The notes under the pieces are model-generated. The model worked only from the letters and a program-made list of their open reading frames with translations, made no database searches and was not told the origin of the DNA. A program made the translations under genes and the position numbers. Below, in pieces: positions 23,316 to 30,922 of a DNA stretch of 41,883 nucleotides. How positions within the stretch are numbered: the stretch's first letter is position 1; each line of letters opens with the position of its first letter. Origin of the DNA: Bacteroidota bacterium (lineage in GTDB: Bacteria; Bacteroidota; Bacteroidia; M30B66); contig CANHIS010000001.1 in assembly GCA_947460255.1 (NCBI GenBank), forward strand, positions 76,113 to 117,995, written 5' to 3'.

Positions 23316-23346
23316 AGGCCCTTGGAAACTTGGGCCTTCGCTTTTT
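23316..23346 (+). terminator. Intrinsic terminator after the yqeY-like gene
   Basis: AGGCCC (23316-23321) pairs with GGGCCT (23332-23337) around a 10-base loop, followed by TCGCTTTTT. The T run touches the stop codon of the convergent patatin gene (23345-23347). Confidence 0.6.
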
Positions 23347-25612
23347 ATTGTCGAAGAAGCTTTCTTAGTTTTTTAAAAGCCAGCGTATTCTCGGGCCGGT
23401 TTAAAGCTTCTAAAATTTTCTTCTTTTCTTTTGTGGTTAGATGAAAGTTCATGGAGATTTCTTGTTGTTCTCCGAATGCCGAATTTAAATCGAATTCAAC
23501 CAATTCAATTTTCCCACGGTACCAAGATTGAGCGTACATTAAAAGCTGCTCGTGCTGATAATCTTGTACTCTAAACATATTTTCATACACACTCCCCAAA
23601 GGTGAAGTTATCAATTCGAGGAAAGTACTTTTGTCGCGGGTTTTCAAGTCAATCGCTTTGTGGTTTTCACGAACCTGTAGAATGATCACACGATCAGTAT
23701 TAGCTGCTATCCAATTTCGAAATTCATATAAGTATCGAATTGCGGTTCGGGTGCCATAATTGTCTCTAAATCCTGCATCCATCACTTCCAAAATTGGTTT
23801 CGATGGCAAAGCCACGGAAGGCAAAATGTAAGGAAAGGTTGCATTCATTCGAATGGCAGTGGAAAAGCGAAGATCATCAGCACCATGCTGTCCAAATAAC
23901 CGAGAAAACTCGATGTCTTCTGGGAGATTCCTAAAAACTGTACCGGTTCTTACAGAGTTGAAAGTGAGGTAACTAATAGGCTGTGAACTGATCAACATCC
24001 GCCGGCCATCATTGATGATTGAAGGGGAAAAAACCATCATTGGAATCAATCCAGCTTTTTCAACCGCGCGATAATCTCTAATCGACTTGTTCAAGACAAA
24101 ACCGGTATTCTCATGGAGCGCTTTTTCAAATTCAAAACCACGGTCACGTGTATATTGGTGGTTTCCGAAGCGAACAGATTGAAAACGAAAAAAGACATCG
24201 TTTACTGCCAGCGAAAAACCAACAGGATTTAGAAGGTCTTTCCCAACATTTTCGGCATATGCAACATCATAAAAATTCTGAATTCTTCCGGTTCTATTTC
24301 TCAAATGAAGCTCACGCAGATAAGCTGCTCCAATCATTCCACCCGAAGATCCAGTAATGAGATTCGCACTTTTTAGCAAACGACCTTGACAAAATGAGTC
24401 AGCCTTTTGCAGCGCTGCAAAAGTCCAAAATGCAGCTTTCAAACCACCGCCCGATACATTCATCAAAACCAGAGTAGGCTTGCCATTCTTGCCAACAGGT
24501 GCTTGAAACTTCCAGTTTTGCAATTGTTTAATTCCTTCTCGTGCATCACGTTCAACCTGCACCTTTCGAGCGTTGTCGAAAAGCATGCTGTCGGGAATTT
24601 CTGCAGGTTCGCCTTGGTAATTTAAGCCATATGCTTGGTTTCGTTTCCCAAAAAACTCATAGCCAGAAAGGTAATTCAAGCCGAGTAAAAGCAGCAATGT
24701 CGCAGTAAATGACCAGTCTCTCAACCACGTAATTACTGCACTTGCTAAAAGCAACAACATGGTTAAAGCAAGAAAAATACTTGCTCCTGCAGGAATCATA
24801 AAAACGGGCGAATCTCTAAACAAGCCCAAAAGAAGGATAATGAACAAGACCGAAAATTCATACACACCTGCAGCCAAATGGTTTCGCCGGAAAACCTTTT
24901 CTACACGTTCTTCTTCATAATGCGAAACATCACGCGCAAGGCTTATTTTAAAAGGGTGAGCTAGATAACTCTTCACATTTCGCAGCGTATTAGACCTGGA
25001 TTTGGAAAATACATTTACCCTGATTAATCTGTTCTTTTTTATCGGGATATCACCTTGCTTTTTAGAGAGGTCAACACCAAAAAACAACAGAATATCGCGG
25101 CTTGCTGTATAGAAATAGGTTAAGCTAAAAACGAAAAAAAGGCTGGCGCCAACGAAAAATCCTGAAAGGTTTAGAAGAATGTCGGTAAGAGAAAAAACTT
25201 CGTTGCTAAGTTGAAACGAAATGTTCATCCAGCCATAAACAAACATAAATCCTAATGGGATCAATGAATTGTTGATGGTGTACTTTACAAACGGCCGACT
25301 TAAACTTGCCAAAAATGGGAATTGCCGGCAATTTACAAGGTAACTTGAGATCTGAAAGGCCATTTGGAATGCACCAAAAGAAACGCCCAATACGAGGTGC
25401 GAGAAAAAACTCACTTTGCCTAAGTATTCAGGATCGAGAAACAAGAGCGGAACGCCGTAATTTACTCCAAATGAACGCGTTACTGATGCAAGTAACATCA
25501 ACCAAAAGAGCATCAACAAAGGGTTCGACCTGAAATGAATCAGCACCAACTGGATTGGAAAAAAACCTACAATTCGACTATAAATGGTCTGCATATAATT
25601 ACGCAAGATCAT
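23345..25612 (-). CDS. Membrane-embedded patatin-like phospholipase
   Basis: A 755-residue protein with two parts. Residues 1 to about 335 contain about eight hydrophobic spans in two groups (about 15-190 and 250-325) and a positively charged stretch near 200-240. The C-terminal part (about 375-755) is a patatin-type acyl hydrolase. It has an oxyanion-hole motif SGGGLKAAFW near 390, the nucleophile in GSSGG (Ser423) and the dyad Asp612 in DAGFRDNYG. The Ser-Asp dyad is complete, so activity on lipid acyl esters is expected; the substrate is unknown. The membrane part has no recognised family here. A near-consensus TAGTTTTA lies 10 bases before the ATG. It is a single leftward gene. Confidence 0.85.
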   Translation of the reverse strand: MILRNYMQTIYSRIVGFFPIQLVLIHFRSNPLLMLFWLMLLASVTRSFGVNYGVPLLFLDPEYLGKVSFFSHLVLGVSFGAFQMAFQISSYLVNCRQFPFLASLSRPFVKYTINNSLIPLGFMFVYGWMNISFQLSNEVFSLTDILLNLSGFFVGASLFFVFSLTYFYTASRDILLFFGVDLSKKQGDIPIKKNRLIRVNVFSKSRSNTLRNVKSYLAHPFKISLARDVSHYEEERVEKVFRRNHLAAGVYEFSVLFIILLLGLFRDSPVFMIPAGASIFLALTMLLLLASAVITWLRDWSFTATLLLLLGLNYLSGYEFFGKRNQAYGLNYQGEPAEIPDSMLFDNARKVQVERDAREGIKQLQNWKFQAPVGKNGKPTLVLMNVSGGGLKAAFWTFAALQKADSFCQGRLLKSANLITGSSGGMIGAAYLRELHLRNRTGRIQNFYDVAYAENVGKDLLNPVGFSLAVNDVFFRFQSVRFGNHQYTRDRGFEFEKALHENTGFVLNKSIRDYRAVEKAGLIPMMVFSPSIINDGRRMLISSQPISYLTFNSVRTGTVFRNLPEDIEFSRLFGQHGADDLRFSTAIRMNATFPYILPSVALPSKPILEVMDAGFRDNYGTRTAIRYLYEFRNWIAANTDRVIILQVRENHKAIDLKTRDKSTFLELITSPLGSVYENMFRVQDYQHEQLLMYAQSWYRGKIELVEFDLNSAFGEQQEISMNFHLTTKEKKKILEALNRPENTLAFKKLRKLLRQ

Positions 25613-25996: not shown

Positions 25997-28900
25997 ATGT
26001 TGAAGAAGCACATCATATTTTGCATTCTCGCACTTATCTGCCTAACGGATTATTTGTCCGCACAAGGAAGTAATACGTGCGTTGGTGCTACAGCTTCTCA
26101 AATATCCTTACCGTTTTCAGCCAACAATCAAAGCACATGTGGCGATGTAAATGACTTTAACGGTCAAAATGCATGCGTTACCTCAACTACGGGCAATTAC
26201 TACGGTGGCCAAGATTGGCTTTACGCATTTACACCTGTTACCGATGGTTACATTACGGTCCTTCTGAACGACATTCAATCAAGCGGCTGGGCGTATCCAA
26301 CACTTTCATTATTCGATGGCTGTCCAGGAACTCCAGGTGCCTGTATGGCTTGGGCACAAGGAAGCACTTGGTCGGGTGGTGCAACATTGCTTCAACAAGT
26401 ACAGGCTGGAACCACTTATTATATCGAAGTGGATGCTTACACTTGGGGAACGTACTACGCAAATTGTTACCAGTTTGATCTTTCAATAAACTTTAGTGGA
26501 ATTGCCGTTCAGCCCAGCTGCACAAATATGAACTTCAATACAGGCAACTTAAATGGATGGTACGGCACCACAGGAAGTGCAATCACGGGTGTGGTTGGAG
26601 CAATTACACCAACTTACAATGCTACAAATCTAGGCATCGTTAACAACCGACAAACCATCATGACAGGAGGTGTGGATGCGTGTGCTGGCTTTCCAAGGGT
26701 AGATCCTACAGGTGGACCATTTTCAGTACGCCTTGGCAATAATGGCACTGGAGCCAATGCTGAACAATTGCTACAAACATTTGCTGTTAACCCATCCAAT
26801 TCTTCATTTACTTACCGATATGCTGTGGTTTTTGAAGACCCGGGTCATTCATCCGAAGAACAACCGTTTTTTAGAGCATTGCTCAGAGACCAAAACGGCG
26901 AGATTATTCCATGCTCCGATTTTATCGTTTCGGCCGCAGCGAACCTCCCAGGATTTTTCGATTCTCCTAATTGTGCAGGCGTGCGATACAAACCTTGGAG
27001 TTCAGTAAACGTTGATCTAACCAATTACCTTGGTCAAAATGTAACGGTCGAATTCACTACTGGAGATTGTAGTCAAGGTGGACATTATGGTTATGCATAT
27101 ATCGATGCAAACTGCGCTCCCTCAATCTTAGCAGAACTAGGCGATACTATTTGCCCTGGCCAATCAACCACACTTAATGCCCCTTCTGGCTACCAAAGTT
27201 ACTCTTGGTCGCCTAGCGGAAGCACTGCACAATCAATTACCGTAACTCCAGCATCGAGTACCACATACACACTTAATCTCACAGCATTTAATGGTTGCAC
27301 AAGTACATTTCAAATTCCAGTTGTTGTATCACCAGTTCCATTAGTAAGCTTCACCTTTCAAGCACCTGCCTGCGATTTGCCAGTGCTGCTTCAAAATACC
27401 TCAACAATAGCATTTGGATCAATCGTATCTCAAACTTGGTCTATTCCGAACGGAAACCCTTCCACCTCAATACAACAAGATGTAAATGTTACTTTTCCAA
27501 CAACAGGCGCAGGCACATATCCCGTAAGTTTATCAATTACCACAGATCAAGGCTGCAATGCGAGTTTAGCCCAGAACATTATAGTTCCGCCATGCGAGTT
27601 TAGAGCAACGATCACAGGCGACACAATTTGTTTGGGAAGTTGCTATACAATGACTACCAGCACCAATTATGGCGCTCCACCTTACACTTACTTATGGTCC
27701 GATGGTAGTACACAAAGTTCGTTAACTGTTTGTCCAAACTCAACTTCAATTTACACGGTTACTTTAACAGATGCAAATGGAGAAACAGCAAACGATACCG
27801 CACAAATTACGATTGCTCCAGAGGTGACATTTAATCACACCATGGAAAATCCATTGTGTGCTGGGCAATCTAATGGAAGCATTTCGGTGCAACCAATCGG
27901 ATATACACCGTTCACATTTAGCTGGAACAATGGCTCAACAAGCAGCACGCTCAACAACATTAGCGCAGGAACATTTCAACTAACTATTGAAGACCGATTT
28001 GGCTGCCCATCCGATACGACCTTCATTTTGACTCAACCCTCCGTTATAACTGCCATTGCCAGTCCGTCTGCAACATTGTGCAACCAATCGAACGGAACAA
28101 TTCAAGTATCAGCTCAAGGTGGCACACCAAGCTACACGTACAGCTTAAACAACGGAAACCTACAAACAAATAGCGACTTCTCTAATCTTCAAACAGGCAA
28201 TTATTCGATCACAATTTCAGATGCGAATAGCTGCCTAATTAATGTAAACACAGTTGTTCAATCCACAAGTTTCCCTACGGGGATGAGCCTACTTGGTGAT
28301 CAACCAACATGTGGAATCAGCAATGGCAGTATTCAACTTTCAAATATCCAAGGCGGAGTCGCACCATTTACTGTGAGTTTGAACGGAGGTTCTTCACAAA
28401 CGATTCCTAACAATGAATACACTTTCAATAATCTCAATGCTGGAAGCTTCCAAATTGCTGTTGTAGATGCCAATGGATGCGCCTTGGATTCGACAGCAGT
28501 GCTCACAATGATTAATGGACCAACAGGTTTATCTTTAGCCGTACAACCATCCACTTGTGGCCTAAACAACGGCGCCATACAAATCACACAAGTAATTGGA
28601 GGTACCCCAACATACAACTATCTAATGAATGGTTCTGCAGTTGGATCGCAAACCAATTTTTCGGCGTTGGCACAAAACACGTATTCTTTTTCGGTAATTG
28701 ATCAGAATGGTTGTTCTGTCGATACTTCAATTGTTCTTCAGGCTCTTCCAAATTTAACCTCTTCAGCTTTGGTTTTATCAAACGTAAACTGCAATGGAGG
28801 AAATGATGGCCAAGCGAGTGTTTCAATCCAATCTGGTAACCCGCCCTACAGCATAACTTGGAGCAATACGCAAGTTGGCAATACGGCAAACAACTTAATT

Positions 28901-30922
28901 GCTGGAAGCTATTCAGTACTTATAACAGATGACGTTGGGTGTTCGAATACCCATGAGATTTCAGTTATTGAACCAGACCCACTCAGCTTTGAAGTTATAA
29001 ACACCCAACCCACGTGTAACCAGAACAACGGAAGCATTCAAGTTATTGATGTAGTGGGTGGATCCGAGCCATTTAATTACTCAATCAATGGCGTAGCCTC
29101 TTCTACAGGACTTTTTTCTGAACTACTTGATACCACCTATGTGATTACGGTAACAGATAGTCTAGGGTGTTCTTCCTCAAGATCTGTTTTACTAGCCATG
29201 CCAACTGCACCAACTGCAATTAATACTTCATCAAGCGATGCATTTTGTGGTAATGCAAATGGATTGATATCACTATTAAACATCAGCAGCGGGATTGCAC
29301 CATTTGAGCTTTCTTTTCAAAATGAAAACTTTATTCCTATTACCTCATTTCCAGTGCAATTTCAAAATCTCGACAACGGGAATTATTCAATCCGAATCAG
29401 AGACGTTAATGGGTGTGAAATAGCTACAAGTCAAGCTATAGAGCAACACCCAGGCCCTTCAATTGCTGAACTTCTGATGCAACCAGCCACTTGTGACTTA
29501 AACAATGCCACAATGGAAGTTCTATCGGTTTCGGGAGGAACAGCTCCTTATTTATTCAGTTTTAACAATGCAAGTTATACGTCCATAAATATTTGGGAAA
29601 ACCTTGCTCCATCGCAACATTCGGTTGTAATTAAAGACAACAATGGATGTTTACTCGATACATTCTTAACGATTCCTGCATTGGAAAATGTAAGCGCCAA
29701 TGCATTTATCATTCAACCTGTCTCCTGTTTTGGGTATTCGGATGGTGCATTGCAAGCAGTTCCAACCTCTGGATTTTCTCCTTTTAATTTCATTTGGAAC
29801 AACGGCAATTTTGGTGAAGTCGCAGATAGCTTGTCGACAGGAACCTATTCAGTTACAGTAACTGATTTGAATGGTTGTACTAAAACCTATTCAATAAACC
29901 TTCCAAATCCAGATCCTCTTTCTATAAATGTAACTGGACCTGATTATGTTTGTGCGGGAGATGCAATAACATTGAATGCAACTGCTGAAGGAGGAACAGG
30001 TCACCTTGAAATTCAATGGCCTTTATATTCTCATGCCGAAGAAGCCATAACAATTACACTGCAAACTTCAGGGTTTATTGAGGCTCGCGTAACTGATGAA
30101 AATGGCTGCCCAGCAAGTGATTCTCAAATGGTTCAAATGCGGCAGCTTCCAGAAGGACAACTTTTGCCCGACATGGCGGAAGGTTGCGCACCAGTCTGCA
30201 TTAACTTTTCATACTTTCAAACGGCGGGCGATTCGATTCAAAACTATTTGTGGAGTTTTAATCAATCTGTTTCTGGAAGCAATAATGCGTTAAACAAACA
30301 ATGCTTTTCGTTGCCGGGATCGCCCGAAATTACATTACAAGTGATCGACATTCACGGTTGTTCGAGTGTATTAAATGCAGACGGATTGGTGCAGATTCAT
30401 CCTAATCCGGTAGCTGCATTTTCGAGAACTCCATTAGAGGCAGATATTGTAAATCCCGAATTTAGATTCTTTAATGAAAGCACTGATGCTGTGACATTTC
30501 GCTGGGGCTTTGGAGATGGAGCAATGTCCCTTCAAGAAAATCCGACACATACTTACGCCGACACAGGTAACTATGAAGTTTGTTTAAAAGTTACAAGTGG
30601 ATTCGGCTGCGTCGACTCAACCTGCGACGATTTAGACGTTGATCCATTTCCAACTGTTTACGCTCCAAACGTTTTTACTCCCAATTCGGATGGTCACAAT
30701 GAGAATTTCAAGATTGTAGTAACCTACGCAACCAAGTTTAGGTTAGAAATTTACGACCGTTGGGGCGAACTGATCCATGTCTCTACTGATCCAGACAAGG
30801 GTTGGGATGGAACCTACAAAGGCAATGAAGTTCAAGAAGATGTGTATGTATGGCGCGCCTATGTAACCAACTCAATGAATTGGAACAAGGAGCTTATTGG
30901 ACGAGTAACTGTGGTCGAATAG
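25997..30922 (+). CDS. Secreted SprB-repeat adhesin with gliding-motility (T9SS) C-terminal domain
   Basis: A 1641-residue surface protein. A signal peptide (about 1-22, MLKKH...LSAQ) is followed by a PPC-like beta domain (about 24-168) and a MAM-like or jelly-roll region (about 170-375). Then come an Ig-like domain (378-447), a PKD-like domain (448-533) and another Ig-like domain (534-612). Nine SprB-type repeats span about 617-1320. An Ig-like domain and two PKD-like domains (the second with FRWGFGDGAMSLQENPTHTY near 1500) follow. The last ~88 residues (APNVFTPNSDGHNENF...YDRWGELI...GWDGTYKGN) are the CHU_C domain used as a type B sorting signal for type IX secretion. A role in adhesion or gliding is inferred; no enzyme domain is seen. 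The stop codon directly abuts that of the convergent ftcD. Confidence 0.93.
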   Translation: MLKKHIIFCILALICLTDYLSAQGSNTCVGATASQISLPFSANNQSTCGDVNDFNGQNACVTSTTGNYYGGQDWLYAFTPVTDGYITVLLNDIQSSGWAYPTLSLFDGCPGTPGACMAWAQGSTWSGGATLLQQVQAGTTYYIEVDAYTWGTYYANCYQFDLSINFSGIAVQPSCTNMNFNTGNLNGWYGTTGSAITGVVGAITPTYNATNLGIVNNRQTIMTGGVDACAGFPRVDPTGGPFSVRLGNNGTGANAEQLLQTFAVNPSNSSFTYRYAVVFEDPGHSSEEQPFFRALLRDQNGEIIPCSDFIVSAAANLPGFFDSPNCAGVRYKPWSSVNVDLTNYLGQNVTVEFTTGDCSQGGHYGYAYIDANCAPSILAELGDTICPGQSTTLNAPSGYQSYSWSPSGSTAQSITVTPASSTTYTLNLTAFNGCTSTFQIPVVVSPVPLVSFTFQAPACDLPVLLQNTSTIAFGSIVSQTWSIPNGNPSTSIQQDVNVTFPTTGAGTYPVSLSITTDQGCNASLAQNIIVPPCEFRATITGDTICLGSCYTMTTSTNYGAPPYTYLWSDGSTQSSLTVCPNSTSIYTVTLTDANGETANDTAQITIAPEVTFNHTMENPLCAGQSNGSISVQPIGYTPFTFSWNNGSTSSTLNNISAGTFQLTIEDRFGCPSDTTFILTQPSVITAIASPSATLCNQSNGTIQVSAQGGTPSYTYSLNNGNLQTNSDFSNLQTGNYSITISDANSCLINVNTVVQSTSFPTGMSLLGDQPTCGISNGSIQLSNIQGGVAPFTVSLNGGSSQTIPNNEYTFNNLNAGSFQIAVVDANGCALDSTAVLTMINGPTGLSLAVQPSTCGLNNGAIQITQVIGGTPTYNYLMNGSAVGSQTNFSALAQNTYSFSVIDQNGCSVDTSIVLQALPNLTSSALVLSNVNCNGGNDGQASVSIQSGNPPYSITWSNTQVGNTANNLIAGSYSVLITDDVGCSNTHEISVIEPDPLSFEVINTQPTCNQNNGSIQVIDVVGGSEPFNYSINGVASSTGLFSELLDTTYVITVTDSLGCSSSRSVLLAMPTAPTAINTSSSDAFCGNANGLISLLNISSGIAPFELSFQNENFIPITSFPVQFQNLDNGNYSIRIRDVNGCEIATSQAIEQHPGPSIAELLMQPATCDLNNATMEVLSVSGGTAPYLFSFNNASYTSINIWENLAPSQHSVVIKDNNGCLLDTFLTIPALENVSANAFIIQPVSCFGYSDGALQAVPTSGFSPFNFIWNNGNFGEVADSLSTGTYSVTVTDLNGCTKTYSINLPNPDPLSINVTGPDYVCAGDAITLNATAEGGTGHLEIQWPLYSHAEEAITITLQTSGFIEARVTDENGCPASDSQMVQMRQLPEGQLLPDMAEGCAPVCINFSYFQTAGDSIQNYLWSFNQSVSGSNNALNKQCFSLPGSPEITLQVIDIHGCSSVLNADGLVQIHPNPVAAFSRTPLEADIVNPEFRFFNESTDAVTFRWGFGDGAMSLQENPTHTYADTGNYEVCLKVTSGFGCVDSTCDDLDVDPFPTVYAPNVFTPNSDGHNENFKIVVTYATKFRLEIYDRWGELIHVSTDPDKGWDGTYKGNEVQEDVYVWRAYVTNSMNWNKELIGRVTVVE
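27845..29935 (+). repeat. Nine tandem SprB-type repeats with period-four organisation
   Basis: Protein-level repeats, each opening with a Cys then NG and closing with a D-x-N/x-GC motif. Opening Cys positions are 621, 695, 772, 854, 932, 1007, 1084, 1166 and 1244. Spacings are 74, 77, 82, 78, then 75, 77, 82, 78. Repeats 1, 5 and 9 share the F/I-x-W-N/S-N form; the others share Y-x-x-N and a GG-x-x-P/Y core. The array thus reads A-BBB-A-BBB-A. Confidence 0.85.

Follow-up and report, generated by a model that had tools for sequence, protein, structure and literature searches.

Results

Gene and Domain Layout of the Locus

The window analysed here is a stretch of 41,883 nucleotides from a Bacteroidota bacterium. 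It was found that positions 25997 to 30922 of the forward strand form one ORF encoding a protein of 1641 aa, which combines a SprB-type stalk with a type B C-terminal domain of the type IX secretion system (T9SS). A Pfam search of the protein returned nine SprB stretches (E ≤ 1), PKD domains, and a C-terminal CHU_C domain. The match to PF13573 (SprB repeat) reached 159 bits in tandem, compared with a curated cut-off of 28, which places the protein in this family. When the genome was scanned with PF13573 at E ≤ 0.001, eight of the nine repeats were recovered and repeat 7 was missed. At the C-terminus, the type B sorting domain was recognised by PF13585 (49.6 bits, cut-off 27) and by TIGR04131 (54.2 bits, cut-off 35), so that the Pfam and NCBIfam profiles both identify a T9SS type B cargo. 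The sorting signal predicts a surface protein. To define the repeats, a cut was set 14 residues ahead of each opening cysteine, which places the nine repeats at 27815-29908. The initial annotation described the array as A-BBB-A-BBB-A; a weak A-like SprB domain (residues 534-606) lies ahead of repeat 1, and the full order is A-A-BBB-A-BBB-A. The features are listed below.

25997-30922, + strand: whole gene, 1641 aa, multidomain; full-length orthologues in five other genomes
26066-27136 (residues 24-380), + strand: N-terminal region, putative binding head; 180 of 360 alignment columns invariant among the six orthologues
27137-27814 (residues 381-606), + strand: further Ig/PKD-like stretch, whose last domain (residues 534-606) is the weak A-like SprB domain
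27815-28036, + strand: repeat 1, type A (W core)
28037-28267, + strand: repeat 2, type B, phase 1; partner of repeat 6, the weakest pair
28268-28513, + strand: repeat 3, type B, phase 2, 82 aa; partner of repeat 7 (3+7 support 95/89)
28514-28747, + strand: repeat 4, type B, phase 3; partner of repeat 8 (4+8 allowed by the AU test)
28748-28972, + strand: repeat 5, type A, phase 4; partner of repeat 9 (5+9 support 97/85)
28973-29203, + strand: repeat 6, type B, second copy of phase 1
29204-29449, + strand: repeat 7, type B, second copy of phase 2, 82 aa; fell short of the E 0.001 threshold in the Pfam genome scan
29450-29683, + strand: repeat 8, type B, second copy of phase 3
29684-29908, + strand: repeat 9, type A, second copy of phase 4
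29909-30166 (residues 1305-1390), + strand: next Ig-like domain; the repeat model gives 8-17 bits in five of the six orthologues and no match in the sixth
30416-30622 (best stretch residues 1474-1542), + strand: PKD domain PF18911 (Pfam)
30662-30871, + strand: CHU_C / T9SS type B sorting domain; PF13585 (best stretch residues 1556-1625) and TIGR04131

The N-terminal region may be a binding head. It had no PDB sequence match up to E 1, and its structure model, with a mean pLDDT of 50.8, was too poor to use. The array was modelled as a chain of beta domains (an Ig chain) with a mean pLDDT of 79.4 and a pTM of 0.33, a value at which the orientation (twist) of the domains is not to be read from the model. 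In both sequence and fold, the solved chains closest to the array belong to the grappling hook protein GhpA (PDB 9flp and others). The best fold match had a Z of 11.9 and an rmsd of 10.8 over 289 residues, and it is the Ig chain that is matched, not its shape. The sequence match consists of nine stretches, the best at 52 bits, with a large composition bias. Aside from GhpA, PF06832 (BiPBP_C, Penicillin-Binding Protein C-terminus Family) matches repeat 3 at 28319-28483 (residues 775-829) with 38.5 bits against a cut-off of 26.8. The W-less B-type SprB domain and BiPBP_C may have related folds.

SprB is the main gliding adhesin of Flavobacterium johnsoniae. The window protein resembles it in that F. 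johnsoniae SprB is highly repetitive and has a T9SS type B C-terminal domain, and the Pfam repeat is named after it. According to the available parts of two papers (PMC9143113, PMC9870892), however, F. johnsoniae SprB is 6497 aa long, compared with 1641 aa here, and a gene for a PorP-like carrier, sprF, adjoins it. In the genome of the window protein, PorP_SprF had ten matches, none of which lies on the same contig (C1) as the window protein. Because of this, the 1641-aa protein is probably not SprB proper but a T9SS type B stalk protein. A likelier sprB-sprF pair of the genome is a 3089-aa SprB array (L052, on contig C25) followed by a PorP_SprF gene at C25:21759-22577. Among the nearest genes scanned around the array gene, those with Pfam matches are FtsA and FtsZ on one side and FTCD and HrpB on the other. 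Beside the array gene, on the FtsA/FtsZ side, is an ORF of 755 aa (23345-25612, reverse strand) for which neither Pfam (E ≤ 1e-5) nor NCBIfam (E ≤ 0.001) gave a match.

Repeats Four Positions Apart Are More Alike than Neighbours

The opening cysteines of the nine repeats are residues 621, 695, 772, 854, 932, 1007, 1084, 1166, and 1244, and that of the next domain is residue 1319. The spacings reported in the initial annotation (74, 77, 82, 78, 75, 77, 82, and 78 residues) are correct and are followed by 75 to the next domain. The motifs on which it paired the repeats were also found: the W core in repeats 1, 5, and 9, with PDPLS after repeats 5 and 9; APF, a longer repeat, and GP-S/T after each of repeats 3 and 7; and LNN with ALPN or ALEN in repeats 4 and 8. 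Repeats 2 and 6 share CNQ in the window copy, but the other five orthologues do not retain this likeness. In three orthologues (L004, L005, and L006), a simple W-core pattern picks out one of the B repeats as well. In the window copy, the linkers are specific to position, with SFPT or TAPT opening repeats 3 and 7, GPT or GPS opening repeats 4 and 8, and ALPN or ALEN before repeats 5 and 9. The repeat lengths run 77-78, 81-82, 78, and 75 residues, twice over, in the window copy and in the five orthologues.

The likeness of repeats was measured by global alignment scores of all repeat pairs, and p values were obtained by permuting the repeat order. In the window protein, the mean score of repeats four positions apart (lag 4) is 114.5, compared with 69-92 at lags 1-3 and 5-7 (p 0.011); lag 8, the single pair 1/9, equals the lag-4 mean. 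Averaged over the six orthologues, lag 4 scores 127.4, compared with 59-95 at the other lags (p 0.0003). Since the six orthologues have a common ancestry, the latter p value is a better estimate, not six independent tests. Thus, the likeness of repeats n and n+4 claimed for this array is borne out by scores, permutations, and shared lengths. The array has the marks of a domain super-repeat, in that domains four apart are more alike than neighbours and both linkers and lengths depend on position.

The pairs are not equally clear. Among the 15 ways of pairing the B repeats, 2-6/3-7/4-8 is the best in five of the six orthologues and in the mean, and it is the second best in the window copy, whose own top pairing is 2-8/3-7/4-6. 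Repeat 1 of the window copy scores 120 with repeat 3, 114 with repeat 9, and 94 with repeat 5, and the identities in this copy are 48% for 4/6 and 30% for 2/6. At the DNA level, no trace of a block was seen: the identity between repeats n and n+4 is 49-55%, which does not stand out from the 47-61% spanned by all pairs.

Orthologues and Repeat Tree

Five further genomes, all belonging to the family group of the window, were found to encode full-length orthologues of the 1641-aa protein, at 49-70% identity. All six proteins have nine repeats, with ten aligned opening cysteines whose spacings agree within one residue, and their arrays align without internal gaps. The expectation that orthologues would have repeats in multiples of four was therefore wrong, as the window copy and the five orthologues have exactly nine. 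Because all of them keep nine repeats at this degree of divergence, the putative four-domain block duplication is old. Among the six orthologues, 127 of the 700 array columns are invariant, whereas the N-terminal region keeps 180 of 360 and the C-terminus 45 of 91. Since counts and lengths are static while so few columns of the array are invariant, selection appears to constrain length and the geometry of the junctions more strongly than the sequence. A more distant match, with 26% identity, lies in an Ignavibacteria bin.

A tree was built from 54 repeats (nine from each of the six orthologues) and 79 columns. In the best tree, the support is 96/89 for 1+5+9, 97/85 for 5+9, and 95/89 for 3+7. 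Thus, the clustering predicted in the initial annotation was recovered for 1/5/9 and for 3/7, whereas 2/6 and 4/8 form no clades. In the AU test, a 4+8 clade costs 0.9 log units (p 0.46) and a 2+6 clade 1.2 (p 0.47), while a 2+4 clade is 11.6 log units worse (p 0.106). The neighbour groups that had been named as evidence against a block are disfavoured, 2+3 costing 24.0 log units (p-AU 0.048) and 6+7 costing 26.4 (p-AU 0.052), and the neighbour clades 3+4 (p 0.016) and 7+8 (p 0.017) are rejected. Therefore, the n/n+4 pairs are supported or allowed, and neighbours are not favoured.

These tests bear on the simplest alternative, namely that the repeats were added one by one and resemble each other by chance. 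The window copy taken alone would leave some room for it, with a p of only 0.011 and a weak 2/6 pair. The p of 0.0003 over the orthologue means and the rejected 3+4 and 7+8 clades largely refute it at the level of the orthologue set, and I consider it very improbable.

The duplication of a four-domain block agrees with the tree, the AU tests, and the shared lengths and linkers, but the A-BBB frame first proposed for it does not fare as well. A 1+5 clade is only 1.15 log units worse than the best tree (p-AU 0.47), so the frame of the block is uncertain. Since repeats 5 and 9 pair in the best tree and have common linkers on both sides, which repeat 1 lacks, the copying of repeats 2-3-4-5 into 6-7-8-9 is the more likely frame, as a preference.

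Periodicity of Four in Other SprB Arrays

Is this common in SprB arrays? A SprB-type match was found in 140 of 149 sampled genomes of the class. I analysed two samples of arrays. Sample 1 consisted of 60 hand-picked stretches, nearly all among the listed matches of the window protein in 40 genomes, plus the six orthologues. Sample 2 consisted of 60 hand-picked stretches among the listed matches of another query, 600 aa from an array without a lag-4 peak, in genomes absent from sample 1. The lag of four had been fixed beforehand by the finding in the window, and sample 2 was drawn after sample 1 had shown lag 4. The genomes of the two samples differ, but some family groups and orthologous arrays are common to both. 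There were 72 contiguous runs of at least nine repeats in sample 1 and 62 in sample 2. Leaving out the six window orthologues gave 128 arrays, and leaving out 17 runs of 9-11 repeats gave the 111 arrays of the main test. For each array, the mean similarity per lag was scaled by the spread of all pairs, and the excess of a lag over its two adjoining lags was taken.

In the 111 arrays, 28 of 34 family groups have a positive excess at lag 4 (Wilcoxon p 4.5e-6). The corresponding numbers are 20, 22, and 21 families for lags 2, 6, and 8 (p 0.065, 0.039, and 0.069) and 7, 6, and 13 families for lags 3, 5, and 7. In sample 2 alone, 18 of 24 families are positive at lag 4 (p 0.001). The excess is also found with stricter array clusters (59/84, p 8e-7) and with a coarse clustering at 45% identity that puts 91 of 134 arrays into one cluster (20/28, p 0.0068). 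Counted by genus it is positive in 35 of 45, by genome in 47 of 70, and by single array in 74 of 111, and among arrays of at least 24 repeats it is positive in 21 of 25 families. When any one family is left out, p stays below 1e-5. These results suggest that stalks of SprB-type domains tend to be patterned in fours.

The trait is not universal. The lag-4 peak is absent in six of the 34 families. A best lag at p ≤ 0.05 was found in 78 of the 111 arrays: lags 1 and 4 in 23 arrays each, lag 2 in 12, lag 3 in 10, lag 6 in 4, lag 5 in 2, and other lags in 4. In the family group of the window, 5 of 13 other arrays are lag-4 positive, two of them strongly (L057 and L059). As for the other long arrays of the window genome, the lag-4 excess is -0.16 in L051, which has no peak there, and 0.57 in L052, in which no lag is significant (p 0.79).

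Control Families

Two other domain families were analysed as controls. HYR was sampled in the 149 genomes already drawn for SprB (40 stretches, with 18 runs of at least nine domains in 8 families). Their mean similarity declines from lag 1 on, and a lag-4 excess is found in 7 of 18 arrays (p 0.88) or, at the family level, where this control is weak, in 5 of 8 (p 0.47). For PKD (20 stretches, 13 runs), the excess is found in 8 of 13 arrays (p 0.58). Thus, a lag-4 peak was not found at the group level in these small control sets, whose stretches were chosen from the best-scoring ones among the matches listed. SprB differs from HYR and PKD pooled (128 vs 31 arrays, Mann-Whitney p 0.0016, arrays not independent). 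In the sampled Bacteroidota of the class, SprB arrays tend to fours, and in length also to twos, beyond chance and beyond the two control domain families.

Individual control arrays have periods of their own. Against the trend of its family, a 25-domain HYR array (L182, G143:C12) has a period of four (z 5.9 at lag 4 and 6.3 at lag 8). Two PKD arrays of the family group f2, L222 (G010:C39) with 35 domains and L224 (G092:C91) with 56, have a strict period of three, with z 8.9 and 9.2 at lag 3, recurring at lags 6 and 9.

Copy-number changes were examined between orthologous arrays. In well-aligned ones, the changes are 4 repeats (L173), 6 (L058), 3 and 4 (L094/L163), and 1 (L059/L057). L052 has a change of 3, in a split run. 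In weakly aligned pairs, changes of 1, 2, 3, 4, 6, and 8 were seen, and several pairs did not align at all. A strict change in fours was rejected. As 6, 3, and 1 occur besides 4, four is therefore favoured but not compulsory.

It may be that the fours reflect nothing but a habit of duplication, in which recombination copies about 0.9 kb, equal to four repeats, with no structural meaning. The indels of 4, 6, 3, and 1 repeats agree with such a habit, as does the finding that several domains are commonly duplicated at once in domain repeats, the unit differing by family (the available part of Björklund et al. 2006, PMC1553488). On the other hand, HYR arrays of the same class, whose units are of similar length, lose similarity from lag 1 onwards, and a period of three occurs in two PKD arrays; therefore, a fixed DNA length does not explain the fours. 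The SprB lags 3 and 5 also lie below their neighbours. I consider this account rather unlikely, and it is compatible with the reading preferred below.

Where the Signal Lies and Whether It Has One Origin

In the 23 arrays whose best lag is 4, linker columns (Q82, P83, E6, and P7) account for several of the largest gains at this lag. The gain of the core glycine G36 is as high as those of the linkers, and there is a small gain across most of the core; the sparsely filled end columns are noise. In the 111 arrays, the core between the two cysteines alone has a lag-4 peak in 26 of 34 families (p 7.5e-5), and the junctions alone have one in 24 of 34 (p 3.6e-4). When repeat length alone is considered, 30 of 34 families peak at lag 2 (p 1.6e-6) and 21 of 34 at lag 4 (p 0.044). 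The signals of core, junction, and length fit blocks copied whole, with lengths also alternating. This alternation of lengths in the 111 arrays, where neighbours are less alike than average, stands apart from the lag-4 sequence signal.

The phases of different arrays were also compared. Among lag-4 arrays of different families, the phases match best under a cyclic shift in 53 of 240 pairs, where 40 are expected (p 0.018, pairs not independent). In the 128 other arrays, the four phase profiles of the window do not follow one another in cyclic order, with 710 forward steps against an expectation of 702 (SD 22) and 683 reverse steps. Because the phases of the window are not found in order elsewhere, the fours in SprB arrays look mostly independent. 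Either they arose many times, or the phases drifted past recognition.

Two alternatives are concerned here. One does without block duplication: the likeness of positions would come from selection, imposed by a four-domain period of the fibre with packing specific to each phase. The linker gains in the 23 arrays, the periodicity of length alone, and the weak register of phases between families point in this direction. The core, however, carries the lag-4 peak as well, as expected of copied blocks, and the super-repeats of titin are attributed to recursive duplication in the available part of PMC10665226. I regard selection without duplication as unlikely. The other alternative is an ancestral SprB tetrad handed down to all arrays, with no separate event in this one. 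It could explain the slight over-representation of cyclic order among the 240 pairs but not the failure of the window's own profiles to follow one another in the other arrays, and it seems quite improbable.

Discussion

A Probable Stalk of Fixed Length, Likely Grown by One Block

I prefer the reading, with a probability of roughly 0.73, that the window array is a stalk of fixed length grown by one duplication of a four-domain block, and that it is one case of a tendency of SprB arrays to fours. The array would be the stalk of a surface protein secreted by the type IX system with a type B signal. Repeat 1 would be an older A domain, and repeats 2-5 (B-B-B-A) would have been copied once to give repeats 6-9, before the split of the genera carrying the orthologue. 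Since then, the copy number would have been static, and repeat lengths would have changed by one residue at most. A four-domain block would be copied along with its junctions, and the new junction would fit best if the phase is kept. As for why the number is four, about a quarter turn per domain together with alternating junction lengths would suffice.

In view of the lag-4 peak in other arrays, a structural period in SprB stalks has become more plausible. A stronger version is an intrinsic four-domain structural repeat across the SprB stalks of Bacteroidia, made for example by about a quarter turn per domain and alternating types of junction, so that independent arrays settle into fours, duplicate them, and keep them. 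This remains a tentative idea, which I hold to be doubtful. If it is true, SprB would be a bacterial counterpart of the titin super-repeats, and the window array would be a frozen example with two periods. The period of four, not seen in the small HYR and PKD sets, leads to a direct prediction, namely a four-domain repeat in structures of tandem SprB domains. It also suggests that the copy numbers of SprB-type proteins should be compared in blocks. SprB-type arrays are widespread in the sampled class, and so their layout matters.

Comparison with Known Systems

Super-repeats are known from eukaryotic muscle proteins. To my knowledge, the layout of the SprB-type Ig-domain chain has not been established, and I know of no partner lattice for SprB stalks. 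No report of super-units in SprB arrays was found in the open-licence PubMed Central literature, as judged mostly from titles and abstracts.

The A-band super-repeats of titin are the closest in kind, according to the available part of PMC10665226. They are made of tandem Ig-type domains in which like positions are alike. Their linkers depend on the position in the super-repeat and affect how the domains are spaced and rotated, and recursive block duplication is invoked, as is proposed here. They differ in the greater length of the blocks, which comprise 11 domains in the C-zone and are taken to mirror the period of the thick filament, whereas the SprB unit is four. Nebulin has one favoured unit of seven domains, found with the same kind of autocorrelation test as used here (Björklund et al. 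2006, PMC1553488). The repeats of that study are mostly in eukaryotes, and its available part contains no SprB result.

Among bacterial proteins, GhpA of Aureispira sp. CCB-QB1, the best PDB match to the window array in sequence and fold, is likewise a long chain of Ig-like domains but has 5898 aa, compared with 1641 aa. Periscope proteins also have a tandem-domain stalk, which sets the distance of the head from the cell. Their stalks are variable in length, as far as the available part of PMC8201768 describes them, in contrast to the nine repeats of the window stalk in all six orthologues.

Individual SprB arrays in the survey had further features. L145 (G081:C1), with 58 repeats, has a very strong alternation of even and odd repeats, with z 7.5 at lag 2, z 11.7 at lag 4, and negative values at odd lags. 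In L153 (G109:C4), an extra pair of cysteines (NGGCDG with LCAGTY) was seen by eye in some repeats, and its two members seem to co-vary along the array. This extra pair possibly forms a second disulfide.
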